Shown in pieces: positions 8,734-47,014 of a DNA stretch of 64,000 bases (positions are counted from its first letter, which is position 1; each line of letters opens with the position of its first letter). The position numbers and the translations under genes were made by a program. The stretch is from Gammaproteobacteria bacterium (lineage in GTDB: Bacteria > Pseudomonadota > Gammaproteobacteria > Pseudomonadales > Azotimanducaceae), in assembly GCA_002690865.1 (NCBI GenBank), contig NZGG01000005.1, positions 1 to 64,000 on the forward strand. The letters run 5' to 3'. Below the pieces are notes generated by a model that ran no database searches, was not told the origin of the DNA, and saw only the letters and a list, made by a program, of their open reading frames with translations.

Positions 8734-9516
8734 TCATCGAACCATCACTTGCCCTCCATCCACGATCAGAGCCTGTCCAGTCATGTAGCTACCGGCTGGC
8801 GAAGCCAAGAATACGCCAACTCCTCTTAACTCCTTCGGATCACCAAATCTGCGCAACGTCACATAATCAGCAGGTTTTTCATTCCCAGCTTCATCGGACC
8901 ACAATACTTGTGCAAATTTAGTTTTGAACAAGCCCGGACACAATGCATTCACTCGAATATTATGCGGACCATATTCTGCCGCCAAATTTCGTACAAGAGC
9001 CAAGTCTGCAGCCTTCGATATCGCGTATGCCCCTAACTCTTTTGATGCAGAAAAAGCGCCGTTTGATGAGGTAATAACAATAACACCATCTTTTTTCCCT
9101 ACCATGTCAGGCAGGACCATGTGACATAACCAGTGGTTAGAACGCACATTACTTTCCATAGTTTTATCAAAAGCAGCATCTGAAATATCTTTTGAGGGCC
9201 CATGATATGGGTTCACACCAGCGTTGTTAACCAGAATATCAATTTGACCGAGTCTCTCGTGGGTCTGGTCAACTAAAGATTGTAACTGGTCTTTGTAGCC
9301 AATATTACACGCAATACCAATCGCACGTTGTTCACCGCACAATTCATTGATCTCTTCCGCTGTTTGCTCGCAGACATCGCCTTTTCGACTTGAAATAACC
9401 ACTTTAGCGCCGGCAATAGCGAGCCCCTCGGCGACAGCCCTACCCATACCAATGGAAGAACCCGTCGTAAGTGCTATCTTTCCACTTAAATCGAACAGAT
9501 CCACTAAACTCGTCAT
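8734..9516 (-). CDS. Short-chain dehydrogenase (gluconate 5-dehydrogenase-like)
   Basis: The 260-residue SDR has the nucleotide motif T-G-S-S-I-G-M-G at 18-25, N-N-A-G-V near 93, a catalytic serine in I-T-S-S-N-G and Y-A-I-S-K near residue 160, then C-P-G-L and the C-terminal G-G-Q-V-M-V. It should oxidise or reduce a secondary alcohol with NAD(P). The overall pattern is that of gluconate 5-dehydrogenase-like SDRs, but SDR substrates cannot be fixed from sequence. It is divergent from the oxygenase gene at 9640. Confidence 0.9.
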   Translation of the reverse strand: MTSLVDLFDLSGKIALTTGSSIGMGRAVAEGLAIAGAKVVISSRKGDVCEQTAEEINELCGEQRAIGIACNIGYKDQLQSLVDQTHERLGQIDILVNNAGVNPYHGPSKDISDAAFDKTMESNVRSNHWLCHMVLPDMVGKKDGVIVITSSNGAFSASKELGAYAISKAADLALVRNLAAEYGPHNIRVNALCPGLFKTKFAQVLWSDEAGNEKPADYVTLRRFGDPKELRGVGVFLASPAGSYMTGQALIVDGGQVMVR

Positions 9517-32865: not shown

Positions 32866-33969
32866 ATGCAAATAACGAACGTAAAAGTAGACATGTTCGA
32901 TTGGACAACAGACCCTTGGAAAACCGGTGTAGGAACACAATTTGGGTCTACTAGACAGTTAGGAGTTGTCACAGTTGAAACCGATGAGGGGATAAATGGT
33001 AACGCCTTTCTCGGTTCATCTCGCCTAGGTGCAGACCATATGGCACCAGGACTTATCCAATTTATAAAACCGAAAATTATGGGTCGAGACCCACAGGATA
33101 TAGGTAAGATTTGGTGGGAGATGTGGAAGGAGAATCGCTCTGTCTACACTAACGTTATTGGTGCAATTGATATTTGTCTTTGGGATATAAACGGTAAGAT
33201 AGCAGAACAGCCTATTCATAGGCTCCTAGGCACTTGTAAACACCAAGTAACTGCATACTCAAGCACTGCTTACCATGAAACAGTCGAAGCTTATGCGGAG
33301 GAAGCTCTTCTTTTTAAAGAACTCGGCTGGGCCGCCCACAAATTACACCCGCATGGAGACCCTGATACAGATATCGAAATTTGCGAGGCCGTGCGCGACG
33401 CAGTTGGTGACGATATGCTCCTAATGCTTGACTCCATGTGGGCCTACCGCTACTCAGATGCGCTGCGAGTAGGCCGCGCTATAGAAGATATGGACTATTA
33501 CTGGTATGAAGATCCCTTGGTTGAAGAAGATCTATACAATTATGTGAAGCTACAAAATAAACTTGATGTTCCGATTATGTCGACAGAATACGTACCAGGG
33601 CGCTTTTATGGAAATGCCCCTTGGATAATGGAAAGAGCTACCGATATTTTACGAGGAGATGTGGCTATCACAGGGGGTATTACACCCTTAATACGAACTT
33701 GTCATCTTGCAGAGGGGTTCAATATGATGTGTGAGATACATCATGGGGGTAATAGTTTGAATAATGTTGCCAATCTACATGTCACTATGGCTGTACCTAA
33801 CTGTGAGTTCTATGAGGTATTTCCCTGTACTGGGGCCAATAAATTTGGTTTGGTGGAAGACATTGAGGTGGATGACCAAGGGTTGGTTTATGCCCCTACC
33901 GAGCCGGGCTTGGGATATGAAATTGACTGGGACTTATTAGGTCAAGGTTATACAGGCACCGCTGAGTGA
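32866..33969 (+). CDS. Mandelate racemase/muconate lactonizing (enolase superfamily) sugar-acid dehydratase-like
   Basis: The 367-residue protein has the capping domain followed by the barrel. Likely Mg ligands are the aspartate in L-M-L-D-S-M near 189, E in Y-W-Y-E-D-P-L near 215 and E in M-S-T-E-Y-V-P-G near 240; K-L-H-P-H-G near 160 and the histidine in E-I-H-H-G-G-N near 292 supply acid/base residues. K-x-H rather than K-x-K resembles some acid-sugar dehydratases. AAGGAGA supports the start. Cotranscription with the GMC pair suggests oxidation of a sugar to an aldonate followed by dehydration. Confidence 0.88.
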   Translation: MQITNVKVDMFDWTTDPWKTGVGTQFGSTRQLGVVTVETDEGINGNAFLGSSRLGADHMAPGLIQFIKPKIMGRDPQDIGKIWWEMWKENRSVYTNVIGAIDICLWDINGKIAEQPIHRLLGTCKHQVTAYSSTAYHETVEAYAEEALLFKELGWAAHKLHPHGDPDTDIEICEAVRDAVGDDMLLMLDSMWAYRYSDALRVGRAIEDMDYYWYEDPLVEEDLYNYVKLQNKLDVPIMSTEYVPGRFYGNAPWIMERATDILRGDVAITGGITPLIRTCHLAEGFNMMCEIHHGGNSLNNVANLHVTMAVPNCEFYEVFPCTGANKFGLVEDIEVDDQGLVYAPTEPGLGYEIDWDLLGQGYTGTAE

Positions 33970-34049
33970 ATGCGTGCACGCAGGACGTTCAAAAGTGATA
34001 TTGAGACTTTATTTCAGTGACTAAAACGAGAGGCGTTCGATCTTTGCCA

Positions 34050-34745
34050 TTACCATTGAACTGAATTTCCCTGCCAATCGAAAAAGCCTCCACTATCGAG
34101 TGGGGTCAAACTAGTCAGTACCCTTTCAATTCTTTGTGCGGTGATCTTTGCCGACGCCCTTTGATGCGAGCTTCTTCGCAGGAAGGGATCTGACAGATTT
34201 GACTGTGTAGTACCTGGGTGGAGGGCTACTAGCGCCAAATTCTTGTGTGTCCTTCCTAATTCTATCGCCAAAGTTTTGACGATCATATTCAAGGCTGCTT
34301 TCGAGCATCGATAGCTGTACCAACCTCCGGATCTGTTATCACCTATACTGCCGATTCTCGCGCTAAGCACGCCACAATGGGCCTCGCGTACTTGCTCAAT
34401 GTGAGTCCGAAAATGTTTTAAAACCATGGAAGGTATTATAGCGTTTCTTTCAAACGCTAAGGCCAGGGACCGGGGTTCCAAGTCGACGACCCGCTTCTCT
34501 GGCATCAAACCATCGCCATGAAGAAATCCATTACAAATAATTATGAGGCTGAACCTGCAATCCACAGACTCCGAAATATTTTCCAGACTGGACTCACTAT
34601 AGTCAGACTCGAACCAGTCCGCTCGACACTTAGCTTGGCTTGATATGGAGACTACCCGTCGTTCCCTCGAAAGGTGTTGATAGAGAGCGCCGCCTATACC
34701 GCCCGATGCTCCTACGATGAGGGCTGGTCCCGCTGGGTCTCTCAC
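34050..34745 (-). CDS. Short-chain dehydrogenase (CsgA-like)
   Basis: This 231-residue SDR has A-L-I-V-G-A-S-G-G-I-G near 8-18, an atypical N-x-x-G region (I-I-C-N-G-F near 69), S-A-R-I-G-S-I near 127, and Y-S-Y-R-C-S-K near 142-149 as the Tyr/Lys active site. It resembles the C-factor/CsgA-like SDRs that often accompany photolyase or light-response genes in gammaproteobacteria. It is the last gene of the minus-strand island led by the MerR regulator. GTG was taken as start; no strong ribosome binding site is visible. GC is about 52-55% in sampled stretches, above its neighbours. Confidence 0.87.
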   Translation of the reverse strand: MRDPAGPALIVGASGGIGGALYQHLSRERRVVSISSQAKCRADWFESDYSESSLENISESVDCRFSLIIICNGFLHGDGLMPEKRVVDLEPRSLALAFERNAIIPSMVLKHFRTHIEQVREAHCGVLSARIGSIGDNRSGGWYSYRCSKAALNMIVKTLAIELGRTHKNLALVALHPGTTQSNLSDPFLRRSSHQRASAKITAQRIERVLTSLTPLDSGGFFDWQGNSVQW

Positions 34746-34800
34746 GCCGACGACCTACCGACTATAACGATGTTTTCCGTCACCCACTAGTCTCCGTGAC

Positions 34801-35076
34801 TCAGTAAAGCAGTGGGAAGCAGCCTCTCGCGCGCGACGACACCAATGCTTCTCTTCGTTCACGGGGGGGGTAACTCTGCCTTACATCAAACTGTGTAACG
34901 CGACAAAGCTTATGTTCTGCTAGTTCCACGTATCGCTCCGAGGCTAATCCAAGGCCGTCTTGAATTGAACTACGCTCCAACCACTGAGATAACCCGGGGT
35001 GGGCTAGGGGAGAAGACCTCACCGCCGGGTTATTTTGCAGGAGTTTAAGATTCTTAGTTAATCTGAAGAAACCCAT
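34801..35076 (-). CDS. Unrecognised 91-residue basic protein in the MerR island
   Basis: The frame starts at ATG 35076 (AGGAAAAG nine bases upstream; an adjacent GTG at 35079 is the alternative). The product begins M-G-F-F-R-L-T-K-N-L-K-L-L-Q, has H-P-G-L-S-Q-W-L-E-R near 29 and a basic C-terminus with P-P-R-E-R-R-E near 69. No family is recognised and no membrane segment is seen. It follows the 29-residue membrane peptide by 11 bases and precedes the SDR by 55 bases, so it is likely part of one operon. High GC (about 57% in one sampled stretch) matches the island. Confidence 0.6.
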   Translation of the reverse strand: MGFFRLTKNLKLLQNNPAVRSSPLAHPGLSQWLERSSIQDGLGLASERYVELAEHKLCRVTQFDVRQSYPPRERREALVSSRARGCFPLLY

Positions 35077-35087
35077 CACACTTTTCC

Positions 35088-35177
35088 TTAAAGAGCTAGG
35101 GAGATTAGAGGGAGGTAACCTAGGCCGACGGCCAGAAGGACACCGAATAAGATAGGGTTGTTAAGAATACTGTTCAT
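35088..35177 (-). CDS. 29-residue single-helix membrane peptide
   Basis: A minus-strand frame from ATG 35177 to TAA 35088 encodes M-N-S-I-L-N-N-P-I-L-F-G-V-L-L-A-V-G-L-G and ends Y-L-P-L-I-S-L-A-L: one strongly hydrophobic helix with a short polar N-terminus. GAGGAAAG lies three bases upstream, and the next gene follows 11 bases after its stop. The peptide is the first gene after the palindromic promoter region. Small membrane peptides of this kind are easily missed by annotation. No homolog is recognised. Confidence 0.6.
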   Translation of the reverse strand: MNSILNNPILFGVLLAVGLGYLPLISLAL

Positions 35178-35229
35178 TAGCTTTCCTCAATTAATTAGTT
35201 TTAATACATTACGTTCTCAATTGCGTTGT

Positions 35230-35283
35230 AGTCTAATGATTGTCTAAATAATGTCAACTTTATTTTGACATTATTTAGACAAT
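35230..35283 (-). promoter_or_regulatory. Palindromic operator overlapping a promoter for the island genes
   Basis: ATTGTCTAAATAATGTCAA at 35239-35257 and its exact reverse complement at 35265-35283 form a 19-bp-arm perfect inverted repeat with a seven-base spacer. On the minus strand the second arm supplies TTGACA (35257-35252), followed after 16 bases by TAGACT (35235-35230), a reasonable sigma-70 promoter pointing at the small peptide. A further ATTAGACT half-site overlaps the -10. The TTAGACA core recurs upstream of the MerR gene. The palindrome overlaps the last codons of the MerR gene. Lack of a U-run argues against a terminator. Confidence 0.65.
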
Positions 35284-36207
35284 TGATTCTAACGGGATTC
35301 CTTCCTCCGAAGCGACCCTTTCCAAGGCCTCCTCGAAAGAGGCTCGTGCCAAACCTGTTATATTGCCAAGATAAACATGTAGATCAGCATCTTTCGCTTG
35401 TTCAGTCTCGCATTGTTGACAATACCGTTCGAAAGCAATCAGGTCATACAACAGTGAAGCAATATGATTTGGGCATTCGCACTGGATCGACGGAAGTATA
35501 TTGCTCACACGTGCTATCACATCATCGGGCAGTCTCCGACTAGGCACTTTCGAAAGATTTTCCTGCGGCTCAGCAATAGTCTCTTTCACGTCACTCGCCC
35601 CCACGATACGAAGAAGCTCAGTCGCCTCGACAGGCGCGCGCAAACATTCCACACCCTTGTCCCTTAAGCCTTGGATATCACCTCTGCTTGCAAAACCATA
35701 AATAAGGACAAGTCTGCAGTCCCTCGAAAGGTCCGCTAATAGCTTAGCCACTTGCTGGCCAAGCGTTGGAACCTCGATAATAACCATGTCATAGCTATCG
35801 TTTAATGTGCTTTTCGATAACCACTCAGTAGCATCAGTTGAAATTAGCGATAGTTCCGCTGGAAAATTTGCTTTTGAAACTCTTAAGGTCGCTGCCACTA
35901 CATGGCCAATTGCTAAAACGCGCTTTGCAGCGCCAATGCTTTCCCCTTTATTACATTTAGAGAGGAGCGCTTCTAATTCACCGGTTGATAGGTCTGCCAA
36001 AAGTCGTACTTGGTGACCACGAGAGGTAAGCTCTCGAACGAGAATAAGTTTCTCAATATTGTCTTGCGTATAGAGCCTTCTCCCAGTTGATGTCCTCTCT
36101 GGAGTCACAAGGGCGTACCTGCTTTCCCACTTTCTGAGTGTGTGGCCCGCTATACCTGTCATTTGGGTTACGGCGGCTATAGGAAGGCCGTGATCTTTCA
36201 TATTCAT
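35275..36207 (-). CDS. MerR-family regulator, class II LitR/PplR-like
   Basis: The 310-residue protein has an N-terminal MerR winged helix: I-A-A-V-T-Q-M-T-G-I-A near 10, H-T-L-R-K-W-E-S-R-Y near 23-32 and G-R-R-L-Y near 42. A Rossmann-like middle domain follows (M-V-I-I-E-V-P-T-L, L-V-L-I-Y-G-F-A-S-R-G), then a C-terminal C-E-C-P-N-H-I-A near 245. The DxHxxG cobalamin-binding motif of CarH/LitR is absent, as in class II LitR (PplR) proteins that act without B12. It probably binds the TTAGACA sites found at its own promoter and at its 3' end, and controls the island. Confidence 0.85.
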   Translation of the reverse strand: MNMKDHGLPIAAVTQMTGIAGHTLRKWESRYALVTPERTSTGRRLYTQDNIEKLILVRELTSRGHQVRLLADLSTGELEALLSKCNKGESIGAAKRVLAIGHVVAATLRVSKANFPAELSLISTDATEWLSKSTLNDSYDMVIIEVPTLGQQVAKLLADLSRDCRLVLIYGFASRGDIQGLRDKGVECLRAPVEATELLRIVGASDVKETIAEPQENLSKVPSRRLPDDVIARVSNILPSIQCECPNHIASLLYDLIAFERYCQQCETEQAKDADLHVYLGNITGLARASFEEALERVASEEGIPLESIV

Positions 36208-36223
36208 ACTGGTTAGCTTTTAA

Positions 36224-36244
36224 TTAGACAGTAGTTAGACAGTA
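36224..36244 (-). promoter_or_regulatory. Tandem TTAGACAGTA repeats upstream of the MerR gene
   Basis: TTAGACAGTA occurs twice, at 36224-36233 and 36235-36244, spaced by 11 bases (one helical turn), 17-37 bases before the MerR start. The TTAGACA core is the same as in the palindrome at 35239-35283. This suggests autoregulation by the MerR protein and coordinated control of both promoters. The repeats are seen directly; the binding is inferred. Confidence 0.6.
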
Positions 36245-36339
36245 TGCCATAGGTTTACCCAAGTGGGTAGTAGCTAATTAAAACTACCTTACCCTGCCTA
36301 GCCTGAGCTTCATTAAACGCGTAACAAGACAGTACTGAT

Positions 36340-37362
36340 TTAGTTTAGCGGGAGGGATACGCGGCGCCCCTCGGTCATACTAATCTGAACTGCTTCCGTG
36401 AATTCCATATACCGTAGGCCATCAGAGAAATTTGTATGAGTTATCGCCCTCCCCAAGTTTATCGCCTCGACAAACTCTTCCTCTACACACCACCTTCCTT
36501 CTTTACCCTCTTCTACTTCTAATAACCGCCATTTATTAGTGTCTCTTGTTGCAATAAATGCATCATTGCCTTCATATTTTAACGAAGCCTTAGTTCCATA
36601 AAATGCCATGTTGTTATAGCCCAGATGAGCGACGTTACTTAAGTGATAAACAGCAGTCGCCCCCGACACATGCTCGGCTACAATACCCAGACTATCAGGG
36701 ACATCGACCCGAGCTAGTTGGCCAGTCTCATTGTCCATTCGTTCCTTTGTGAAAATATTTCCATACGCTATGACTGACTTTTCGTGACCAGCGTAACGCC
36801 TTACCGTTTCATTTTGTATGCCCATCGACATAATATTATTGCCCGATAAATCTCTTCTATTCCGCCAATGCAATGGCGAATTTGGATCATACTGTCCACC
36901 TAACGCCGTCACATGTATTTCTAGTAGCTCACCGAAAAACCCCTCTTCTAACATCTCTAATACCGTCGGTTCATGCTTAAGGTTTCTAGGCGCAGGAACC
37001 ACCATACTAATTTTATTAGTGGCTTTAGAAGCAACCAACATTTCTCTAGCCTCCGCTAGATTCATTGCCATACGAGCTTCAGTTAACACATGCTTCCCAG
37101 CCTTCAAACTAGATATGGTCAAATGCTTGTGCATATAGGGCCATGTACCTATGCATATCGCATCGATATCATCTGCGTTAATTATTTCATTTGGCTCCTT
37201 AGCAATACGCGGGATGCTAAAGGAATCTGCCACCTTTTTTGAGGAGGTTATCGAACGATTACATACGGCAACCACCTCCACGTCTTCAATAGCTTGAAAA
37301 CCAGGGATATGGCGGAGTTTTGTATTACCACCAGCACCAATAAGACCGATTCGGAGTGCCAT
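36340..37362 (-). CDS. Gfo/Idh/MocA-family oxidoreductase
   Basis: This 340-residue protein has the N-terminal NAD(P) fold G-L-I-G-A-G-G-N near 6-13, a typical E-A-R-M-A-M-N-L-A-E-A near 95 (the family's E-K-P position reads E-A-R here), and an M-S-M-G-I-Q-N-E region near 177 in the C-terminal substrate domain. Members oxidise or reduce sugars, inositols and related compounds. The loss of the usual lysine in the EKP motif is notable because it normally takes part in catalysis. It stands between the MerR island and the peroxidase cluster on the minus strand. Confidence 0.87.
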   Translation of the reverse strand: MALRIGLIGAGGNTKLRHIPGFQAIEDVEVVAVCNRSITSSKKVADSFSIPRIAKEPNEIINADDIDAICIGTWPYMHKHLTISSLKAGKHVLTEARMAMNLAEAREMLVASKATNKISMVVPAPRNLKHEPTVLEMLEEGFFGELLEIHVTALGGQYDPNSPLHWRNRRDLSGNNIMSMGIQNETVRRYAGHEKSVIAYGNIFTKERMDNETGQLARVDVPDSLGIVAEHVSGATAVYHLSNVAHLGYNNMAFYGTKASLKYEGNDAFIATRDTNKWRLLEVEEGKEGRWCVEEEFVEAINLGRAITHTNFSDGLRYMEFTEAVQISMTEGRRVSLPLN

Positions 37363-45586: not shown

Positions 45587-47014
45587 ATGAGAGATTACAC
45601 AAAATTTTATATTAATGGAGAGTGGGTAGATCCTAGTTCTCCCAAAAGCTTGGGCGTCATCAACCCAGCAAGCGAAGAGGTCTGTGCCCAAATCGCTCTG
45701 GGTAATGATGAAGACGTTGATAAAGCAGTAGAGGCCGCACGGACCGCTTTTCAATATTATGGTTCAAGCGACCGAAAGTTCCGTATTGAGCTACTTAAGG
45801 AAATCATTGAGATATACAAAAAACGTGAGCAAGATTTAGCCGATGCGATCTCTGAAGAGATGGGAGCTCCTGCGAAGCTTGCTATCCAGGCGCAAGCATC
45901 CGCTGGCCTAGGTCACCTGTCCCAAGCATTAGAGGTTTTGGAAACCTTTGAGTTCGAAGAAGGTAGAGAGCCACACAGGGTTTTTAAAGAGCCGATCGGG
46001 GTTTGCGGGATGATCACACCTTGGAACTGGCCCGTTAATCAGATCGCCTGTAAGGTGGCACCCGCACTAGCGGTCGGCTGTACTATGGTATTGAAGCCAT
46101 CGGAAGTCGCACCCTTATCCGGCTACCTATTTTCCGAGATCATCCATGAGGCTGGGGTACCAAAAGGCGTGTACAATATGGTTAATGGCGACGGTGCCGG
46201 CGTTGGGACAGCACTTTCCAAGCACCCGGGGATCGATATGGTATCGTTTACCGGGTCTACGCGTGCCGGAACCCAAGTCGCTCAAAACGCAGCACCTACG
46301 GTTAAAAGAGTCACGCAGGAGTTGGGTGGAAAGTCTCCGAATATCATTCTTGATGATGCAAATCTTGAGCAAGCAGTCTCCCGAGGTGTCATGCACATGT
46401 ACAACAACACTGGTCAAAGCTGCAATGCTCCTAGCCGTATGCTAGTACCCGCACATAAGCTGGCGGAAGCTGAGCGAGTTGCCGCGCAAGTAACCGAAAA
46501 AGTAGTGGTCGGTGACCCAAAAGCCGAGGGTACAACGATGGGACCGGTCGTTTCTGAAGTGCAATTTGACAAAGTTCAGGGGCTTATCGAGAAAGGGATC
46601 GAAGAAGGAGCAAAACTTGTCACCGGAGGGCCGGGCCGTCCAGATGGAATCTCCAAGGGGTACTTTGTTAAGCCTACTGTGTTTTCAGAGGCCAATAATG
46701 ATATGACTATTGCCAGAGAGGAAATTTTTGGTCCAGTCCTGACCATGATCCCCTATAAGAGTGAAGAAGAAGCTATCGCGATAGCAAACGACACCGATTA
46801 TGGTCTAGCTGGTTATGTTCAAGGGGGCGATATAAGTCATGCTAGGAGTGTTGCTTCGAAGATCCGTGCTGGTAACGTTCACCTCAATGGAGCTGCACCA
46901 GGGCGAGATTTACCCTTCGGAGGATATAAACAGTCCGGTAATGGCAGAGAATGGGGACCGCACGGCTTTACGGATTACCTCGAAATTAAAGCAATTTCTG
47001 GTTACGAAGGATAA
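45587..47014 (+). CDS. Aldehyde dehydrogenase (NAD(P)-dependent)
   Basis: The 475-residue protein has the ALDH pattern: I-T-P-W-N-W-P near 144, F-T-G-S-T-R-A-G near 222, the general-base glutamate in E-L-G-G-K-S-P near 245, the catalytic cysteine in G-Q-S-C-N-A-P near 279, and E-E-I-F-G-P near 378. It oxidises aldehydes to acids. The length and lack of a leader suggest the cytoplasmic group 1 family. A 12-bp perfect stem-loop follows the stop by 19 bases. Confidence 0.94.
   Translation: MRDYTKFYINGEWVDPSSPKSLGVINPASEEVCAQIALGNDEDVDKAVEAARTAFQYYGSSDRKFRIELLKEIIEIYKKREQDLADAISEEMGAPAKLAIQAQASAGLGHLSQALEVLETFEFEEGREPHRVFKEPIGVCGMITPWNWPVNQIACKVAPALAVGCTMVLKPSEVAPLSGYLFSEIIHEAGVPKGVYNMVNGDGAGVGTALSKHPGIDMVSFTGSTRAGTQVAQNAAPTVKRVTQELGGKSPNIILDDANLEQAVSRGVMHMYNNTGQSCNAPSRMLVPAHKLAEAERVAAQVTEKVVVGDPKAEGTTMGPVVSEVQFDKVQGLIEKGIEEGAKLVTGGPGRPDGISKGYFVKPTVFSEANNDMTIAREEIFGPVLTMIPYKSEEEAIAIANDTDYGLAGYVQGGDISHARSVASKIRAGNVHLNGAAPGRDLPFGGYKQSGNGREWGPHGFTDYLEIKAISGYEG

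Follow-up and report, generated by a model that had tools for sequence, protein, structure and literature searches.

A 64-kb stretch of DNA from a gammaproteobacterium of the family Azotimanducaceae (hereafter the window) carries on its minus strand a compact module around a MerR-type regulator related to LitR and CarH. The module reads in the order tandem operator, merR, palindromic operator with promoter, 29-amino-acid (aa) open reading frame (ORF), 91/92-aa ORF and short-chain dehydrogenase (SDR). It probably acts as a local, self-regulating switch for light or photo-oxidation, in which a B12-independent LitR/CarH relative, a release signal and a peptide-SDR output are combined; we hold this reading with moderate confidence. 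The principal features are as follows.

35275..36207, minus strand: MerR-type regulator, CarH/LitR-like, 310 aa, with a winged helix-turn-helix (HTH), a flavodoxin-like middle domain and a C-terminal helical domain with CECPxH...C...H
36221..36242, minus strand: merR operator, two tandem 11-bp repeats with TTAGACA cores, just upstream of merR
35239..35283, no strand assigned: palindromic operator, 19-bp arms, two 11-bp units per strand
35230..35257, minus strand: promoter TTGACA-N16-TAGACT, its hexamers being operator units 1 and 3
35088..35177, minus strand: 29-aa hydrophobic peptide MNSILNNPILFGVLLAVGLGYLPLISLAL, with GAGG ahead of the ATG
34050..34745, minus strand: SDR, PRK09009-like by family search, 231 aa

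The sites, palindrome, promoter and ORFs had been described in a first-pass annotation made from the letters alone, and coordinates and a repeat search confirmed that they are real. From its interpretation, the LitR/CarH-type regulator, the operators and the conserved gene order were retained; recent transfer, class II membership and a secure 91-residue protein were not.

The genome assembly of the window (G000) comprises 2.42 Mb in 46 contigs and is 99% complete. A sister genome, G005, and three further genomes (G003, G001, and G025) are the nearest carriers, with merR genes 48–77% identical to that of the window; the nearest named relative by locus in the GTDB contig search was the marine Gammaproteobacteria bacterium TMED1. 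A search for the regulator covered 58 genomes, of which 33 had a match at E ≤ 0.001 (in the weakest cases confined to the HTH), and 206 genomes from the family, with 97 at E ≤ 1e-30. From the GTDB contigs, the best 80 of 562 candidate relatives were kept as an 80-locus survey. Its thresholds were set on tblastn with the window, G003, and G025 proteins, so that distant homologues are missed, and its counts include loci cut by contig ends.

Operators and promoter

The merR operator consists of the units 36221–36231 and 36232–36242 (period 11), which on the plus strand read as the CarH-type units TAATTAGACAG and TAGTTAGACAG. Its nearer TTAGACA core, at 36225, lies 17 bases from the merR ATG at 36207, just as the first-pass annotation had placed the tandem pair. 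The perfect palindrome that it reported at the 3' end of merR was also found: the arms (35239–35257 and 35265–35283) are 19 nt long, 100% complementary and separated by a 7-nt gap, and they overlap the merR stop (gene end 35275). The claimed overlap of this palindrome (35239–35283) with the promoter TTGACA-N16-TAGACT (35257–35230, minus strand, 10 of 12 consensus positions) is equally real.

Read in the direction of the genes behind it, the promoter region AAAGTTGACAT-TATTTAGACAA-TCATTAGACTA is made up of three 11-bp units. Compared with the CarH operator unit nAnnTnnACAn, the consensus in the excerpted text of PMC8156234, units 1 and 2 have no mismatch and unit 3 has two. The upstream palindrome arm holds two perfect CarH units on the opposite strand, and the merR operator two more. 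The sites are thus built of 11-bp direct repeats, with one pair in inverted orientation to another pair and a weaker third unit coinciding with the −10. In the accessible part of PMC9304148, the unit is given as nnnnTnnACAn and a −35 TTGACA lies within a repeat of CarH operators. The putative operators of the window share this feature of LitR/CarH operators, namely tandem 11-bp repeats with the −35 TTGACA inside a repeat. The 22-bp distance between the starts of the −35 and −10 elements places them on units 1 and 3, and a bound regulator should therefore block RNA polymerase.

The exact tandem two-unit CarH consensus occurs three times in the window, each time at the module, compared to 0.13 expected and none of 100 shuffles reaching three. 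Likewise, the site-derived pattern TGTCTAANNNNTGTCWAN has three zero-mismatch matches in the whole 2.42-Mb genome, all at the module. The promoter match alone proves nothing, because promoter-like sites number 3 in 2.5 kb versus 2.8 in shuffles; the evidence is its conservation in relatives.

A tandem TGTCTAA pair is found before merR in the same place in G005, G003, G001, and G025. The promoter hexamers and their spacing are identical in G005 and G003; G001 has TTGACA/TATACT, and G025 has no −10 match. The first-pass annotation had staked its reading on gene order and palindrome being kept in relatives, and both are, with the inverted palindrome arm reduced to one unit in G025. Among the 80 loci, 44 operator-like pairs lie within 1 kb of merR (155 kb) versus 15 elsewhere (869 kb), and leaving out L065–L070, the six nearest loci, gives 26 in 143 kb versus 14 in 803 kb. 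Shuffling the loci left 17 pairs in place of 59.

A wider regulon was rejected on the pattern, which at up to two mismatches gave 79 matches in the genome compared to 113 for the reversed control pattern. Two other operator-like sites with one mismatch (C10 and C25) had no clear promoter of a related gene. A search of Rfam over 33900–36400 returned only mir-580 on the palindrome (E 0.59, 21 bits vs. a gathering score of 83), which was taken as chance.

The regulator

The HMM search proposed in the first-pass annotation matched the regulator to Pfam over the HTH only (MerR_1, E 4.7e-13) and the SDR to a PRK09009-like family, and found no credible family for the 29-aa and 91-aa ORFs. A MerR HTH is present in all 14 aligned members. 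In the structural model (mean pLDDT 82, pTM 0.43), the HTH is followed by a flavodoxin-like domain with five strands and by a helical C-terminal domain. Foldseek ranks 1–8 are all CarH (E 1.7e-6 to 1.6e-5), and the VIA-align match to CarH has a Z of 11.4 over 177 residues at an rmsd of 18.1. In a PDB profile search, the top matches, limited to HTH residues, were 3whp ("probable transcriptional regulator"), which we take to be the Thermus LitR, and CarH. The five core loci formed one clade (100/97) in a tree of 49 regulators, with the window and G005 as sisters (100/100).

The CEC, H, C, and H residues of the C-terminal motif are kept in 13 of the 14 aligned regulators. The exception, L061, lacks both CEC cysteines; in the C-terminal alignment without it, all 13 members keep the motif. 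The C-terminal domain was modeled with a pLDDT of 85.6 and a pTM of 0.76. It had no PDB structure match at E ≤ 0.001, and its best PDB sequence profile match had an E of 0.22.

Neither B12-binding nor B12-binding_2 was matched in Pfam at E ≤ 1 by the window regulator or the 14 members, in agreement with the earlier remark that the regulator has no cobalamin motif. Its assignment to class II LitR/PplR proteins failed on two features. B12-binding_2 was found in 0 of the 14 members, and the operators have a period of 11 bp instead of TGTACA-N12-TGTACA; where the class II operator reads T(G/A)TACA-N12-TGTA(C/T)A, the window sites read TAGACA/TTGACA at the 11-bp period. The PmlR proteins score B12-binding_2 at only 1.1e-5 and 3.5e-7 in the available portion of PMC9758184. 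An extract of PMC11417400 calls class II LitR adenosyl-B12-dependent, which conflicts with PMC9758184. Taken by its sequence features, the regulator fits a B12-independent LitR/CarH relative and is filed as such, not as a class II LitR.

The 29-residue peptide

The tiny membrane peptide that the first-pass annotation had placed behind the promoter is present as an ORF, small and hydrophobic (best 19-residue hydropathy 2.3, net charge 0). Between the window and G005, it differs at 8, 1, and 19 first, second, and third codon positions over 29 codons. As the differences are mostly at third positions, they constitute a coding signature, and the peptide is evidently under purifying selection. It matched nothing in Pfam or NCBIfam and one unknown family in PHROGs (E 0.11), and the best matches in the literature on LitR and small proteins included no such peptide.

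A peptide of roughly 30 aa beside merR and tandem operators recurs in G005, G003, G001, and G025. Leave-one-locus-out profiles were run over 12,020 short ORFs from the 80 loci, and only the training peptides scored above the held-out ones. The values were 0.0015 for the window, 0.0019 for G005, 3.5e-11 for G003, 1.6e-8 and 0.11 for G001, and 4.7e-8 for G025. The peptide of G001 is present as two diverged tandem copies of 29–30 aa behind one operator (L067:9026-9115 and 9195-9287), which suggests peptide amplification.

A wider profile of eight peptides (six core and two weak ones from L069 and L070) was run on 390 genomes drawn from the order, a draw evidently without the other four carriers and no census. 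Seven genomes matched at E ≤ 0.01, of which the window's own was alone convincing (1.4e-11); the other six ranged from 7e-4 to 0.01, and the one of these inspected did not resemble the peptide. Possible distant peptides between an operator and a DUF6482-like gene (L069:7510-7605 and L070:7432-7539) were insignificant with the core profile (E 180 and 38, respectively). The L070 candidate reached rank 7 and an E of 0.66 with one left-out profile. If both were counted as peptide carriers, the regulator tree would need three changes. In five other loci with a DUF6482-like gene near merR (L075, L092, L094, L099, and L104), no such peptide ORF was seen by eye.

Gene neighborhoods and photo-repair genes

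The SDR, called CsgA-like in the first-pass annotation, is present (34745–34050), with a PRK09009-like family match. GASGGIGG and YRCSK, which we take to be its glycine and active-site motifs, were read by eye.

G005 has the same gene set as the window. In G003, merR, the peptide, a DUF6482-like gene (17.0 bits, below the 23.5 cut-off), an alpha/beta hydrolase, an SDR, and a photolyase follow each other, all in one direction. G001 has the two peptide copies behind merR and a photolyase upstream of it on the same strand, and no SDR match. G025 has a DPRP/cryptochrome-like gene and an SDR divergent from merR. A photolyase or DPRP/cryptochrome-like gene thus forms part of the module or adjoins it in three of the four related genomes (G003, G001, and G025). 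Counted within 4 kb of merR, an SDR is present in 29 of the 80 loci, a photolyase-like gene in 16, a DPRP-like gene in 8, either photo-repair gene in 24, and a DUF6482-like gene in 9; at least one of these four marker genes is found in 46. The literature search returned no paper on DUF6482.

Three plasmid homologues of the regulator were opened: two have GTP cyclohydrolase I and an SDR, and one of these also a photolyase. A homologue 28% identical to the window regulator lies on a Burkholderia anthina plasmid typed as conjugative (L146, record 218219-231076), with GTP cyclohydrolase I, a sigma factor, an SDR, an FAD oxidoreductase, and a photolyase as neighbors. This is perhaps a mobile photo-response cluster.

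Genome-wide searches covered six genomes. The photolyase FAD domain was found in G003, G001, G025, and G017 and in neither G000 nor G005; DPRP was found in G001 and G025, and BLUF in G025 only, with an internal stop. In the sister genome G005, there was no photolyase, DPRP, or BLUF match, and no LOV-like protein in the PAS_9 search. The only PAS_9 match in the window's own genome (22.5 bits, below the cut-off, PAS_9 model only) is a 361-aa protein that by eye is an NtrB-like kinase. G005 has one match, a 594-aa kinase-like protein, and G001 none; G003, G025, and G017 have five or six each, mostly long proteins, partly examined for LOV. A LOV motif regular expression had a single match in the 80 loci (L125, more than 6 kb from merR).

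The 91/92-aa ORF

Two further features lie between the peptide and the SDR.

34801..35079, minus strand: 91/92-aa ORF, doubtful coding, with a like-length ORF only in G005
34985..35048, minus strand: hairpin inside this ORF, its best conserved stretch

An ORF without a family match is present, as the first-pass annotation had it, but its status as a protein is not secure. The ORF in the same place in G005 has 91 codons. In favor of coding, the two align ungapped at the default gap cost, share RYVELAE/RYIDLAE in frame, and an open frame this long arises in 1.3% of shuffles. Against it, the pattern of differences by codon position is flat (49/36/53 over 91 codons, 10/9/12 over the first 33), DNA identity is 33% over the last 34 codons, and in-frame gaps appear at low gap cost. 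No credible match was found in Pfam, NCBIfam, or PHROGs, a hit to YscG (E 0.16) being taken as chance. In the window and in G005, where it is 84% identical, the 64-nt stretch folds as a hairpin (z −4.9 and −4.2), and one compensatory change was noted by eye. The element may be a protein, a structured RNA or both, and is doubtful as a protein.

It was also tried as a remnant of the DUF6482-like, hydrolase or photolyase genes, where the best E values were 0.007, for an antisense piece of 15 residues, and 0.044, for the beginning of the hydrolase; neither was convincing. As a repeat element it was rejected, no second copy being found in four genomes (next best E 0.29).

Proposed mechanism and alternatives

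In the mechanism we favor, the regulator would bind two sets of tandem 11-bp repeats, one ahead of merR and the other spanning the downstream promoter from the −35 through the spacer to the −10. Bound there, it would shut off both the peptide-SDR transcript and its own gene; the presence of sites at both merR and the downstream promoter implies autoregulation. An inducing signal would then release it. We infer light as this signal: kinship and gene neighborhood make blue light, or light-made singlet oxygen or reactive oxygen species (ROS), the most likely candidates. Repression by promoter cover and release by light or its products are proposed by analogy with CarH and PmlR2; the latter, according to PMC9758184, is a repressor of light-inducible genes that a LOV protein releases. 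The peptide and the SDR would share one transcript, and both presumably function as the output of the switch. In larger relatives, the switch sits with photolyase or cryptochrome-like genes; in this small-genome lineage, where photo-repair genes were not found, the 29-residue peptide and the SDR may be left as output.

Several observations count against this reading. The best NCBIfam match of the regulator, CarH, scores 44.6 bits against a cut-off of 400. The CarH matches in Foldseek have TM scores of 0.23–0.27 and rmsd values of 17–20, and VIA-align rates a CpaE receiver-like domain about as highly as CarH (Z 11.8 and 11.4), so that the middle domain is not CarH-specific. The exact two-unit consensus is matched once each in G003 and G025 and not at all in G005 and G001, whose operators retain just the TnnACA cores; the merR-side pair has two mismatches in G005, G001, and G025, and 695 of 5000 shuffles of these stretches scored as well. 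In 34 of the 80 loci, merR has none of the four marker genes nearby. No photolyase, DPRP, BLUF, or LOV candidate was found in the window's genome, which leaves no nameable light sensor. In the part of PMC5241685 at hand, a photolyase-linked MerR of Vibrio cholerae is placed in the ROS response. The light- or stress-responsive module of the first-pass annotation is supported in part, by kinship, operators and photolyase-type neighbors in some relatives.

The missing photoreceptor candidate and the ROS-linked V. cholerae MerR, together with the conserved Cys/His motif, also speak for a switch for redox or metal stress, in which the C-terminal CECPxH...C...H motif of the regulator would itself be the sensor, responding to a metal, a cofactor or the redox state instead of light. 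The location of relatives next to photo-repair genes and the role of the studied relatives as light regulators argue otherwise, and we regard direct sensing of this kind as possible and clearly the less probable explanation.

The module could also be a leftover, with the regulator controlling itself and some little-used genes after photolyase loss and the 91-aa ORF as debris of a lost operon. The missing photolyase and DPRP matches in the window and sister genomes, the unclear coding signal of the ORF (49/36/53) and a weak match between the G005 version of the ORF and the beginning of the G003 hydrolase (E 0.044) are consistent with this. However, two species share intact, conserved copies of the peptide, SDR and merR genes and of the operators, and the peptide changes fall mostly at third positions, which makes a leftover distinctly unlikely.

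Hardly credible is the horizontally acquired GC-rich island first proposed, which the raised GC of the SDR and the ORF favors (49–51% vs. 43.5%) and the same module, flanking genes and GC in G005, as well as gfo and mauG near merR in G003, oppose. GC amounts to 49.3% in the SDR (97th percentile of equal window stretches), 51.3% in the 92-aa ORF, 47.2% in merR, and 43.5% in the window; the contrast is modest, smaller than the sampled 52–57% versus 35–42%. In G005, the corresponding values are 50.1% for the SDR and 51.4% for the 91-aa ORF, and the flanking genes mle, gfo, and mauG are 94%, 80%, and 75% identical; gfo and mauG homologues also lie 3–5 kb from merR in G003. Because module, flanking genes and slightly raised GC are common to the sister species, recent transfer is not borne out, and the module is resident in this lineage. 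The highest GC among the 64 one-kb steps of the window is at 46001–47000 (50.8%), compared to 49.9% for the module region.

Relation to known systems

With class I CarH/LitR of Thermus thermophilus and Myxococcus xanthus, the module shares the MerR HTH, a predicted flavodoxin-like domain, tandem 11-bp TnnACA repeats and the −35 TTGACA within a repeat. It differs in having no Pfam B12-binding domain, an extra C-terminal CECPxH domain, and a peptide and an SDR behind the promoter where class I has carotenoid genes. Class II LitR (PplR1-3 and PmlR1/2 of Pseudomonas), compared by features and not by sequence, likewise comprises B12-independent MerR proteins, with an operator overlapping the −35 of the target promoter and a family neighborhood of photolyase, SDR, and small unknown genes; here, however, B12-binding_2 is absent from all 14 members, the repeats are 11-bp direct ones, and no LOV partner was found. 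The V. cholerae pair VCA0056/phr VCA0057, compared by description, combines a MerR in a predicted operon with a photolyase and a blue-light response in the consulted text of PMC5241685, whereas no photolyase was found in the window's genome. CarA of M. xanthus resembles the regulator as a B12-independent CarH paralogue with an operator of 11-bp and inverted repeats (partial texts of PMC9304148 and PMC8156234); CarA is released by the antirepressor CarS.

A further-reaching proposal, which we consider unlikely, is that the light regulon has been rewired in marine Gammaproteobacteria with small genomes. Here a descendant of LitR/CarH, having lost both B12 binding and any known photoreceptor partner, would sense its signal itself by means of the conserved C-terminal Cys/His domain; its first target would be an undescribed family of membrane microproteins of about 30 residues, acting in the membrane as the primary photo-stress response.

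For the B12-independent LitR/CarH branch, the module provides an exactly defined operator-promoter unit, from which binding and light tests can be designed from the sequence alone. The first gene under the presumed switch codes for a small, conserved membrane peptide; genes of this kind are easily overlooked in annotation. In some lineages, the switch seems to have persisted after loss of the photolyase found with it elsewhere, and these offer a natural test of what else such a switch is used for.

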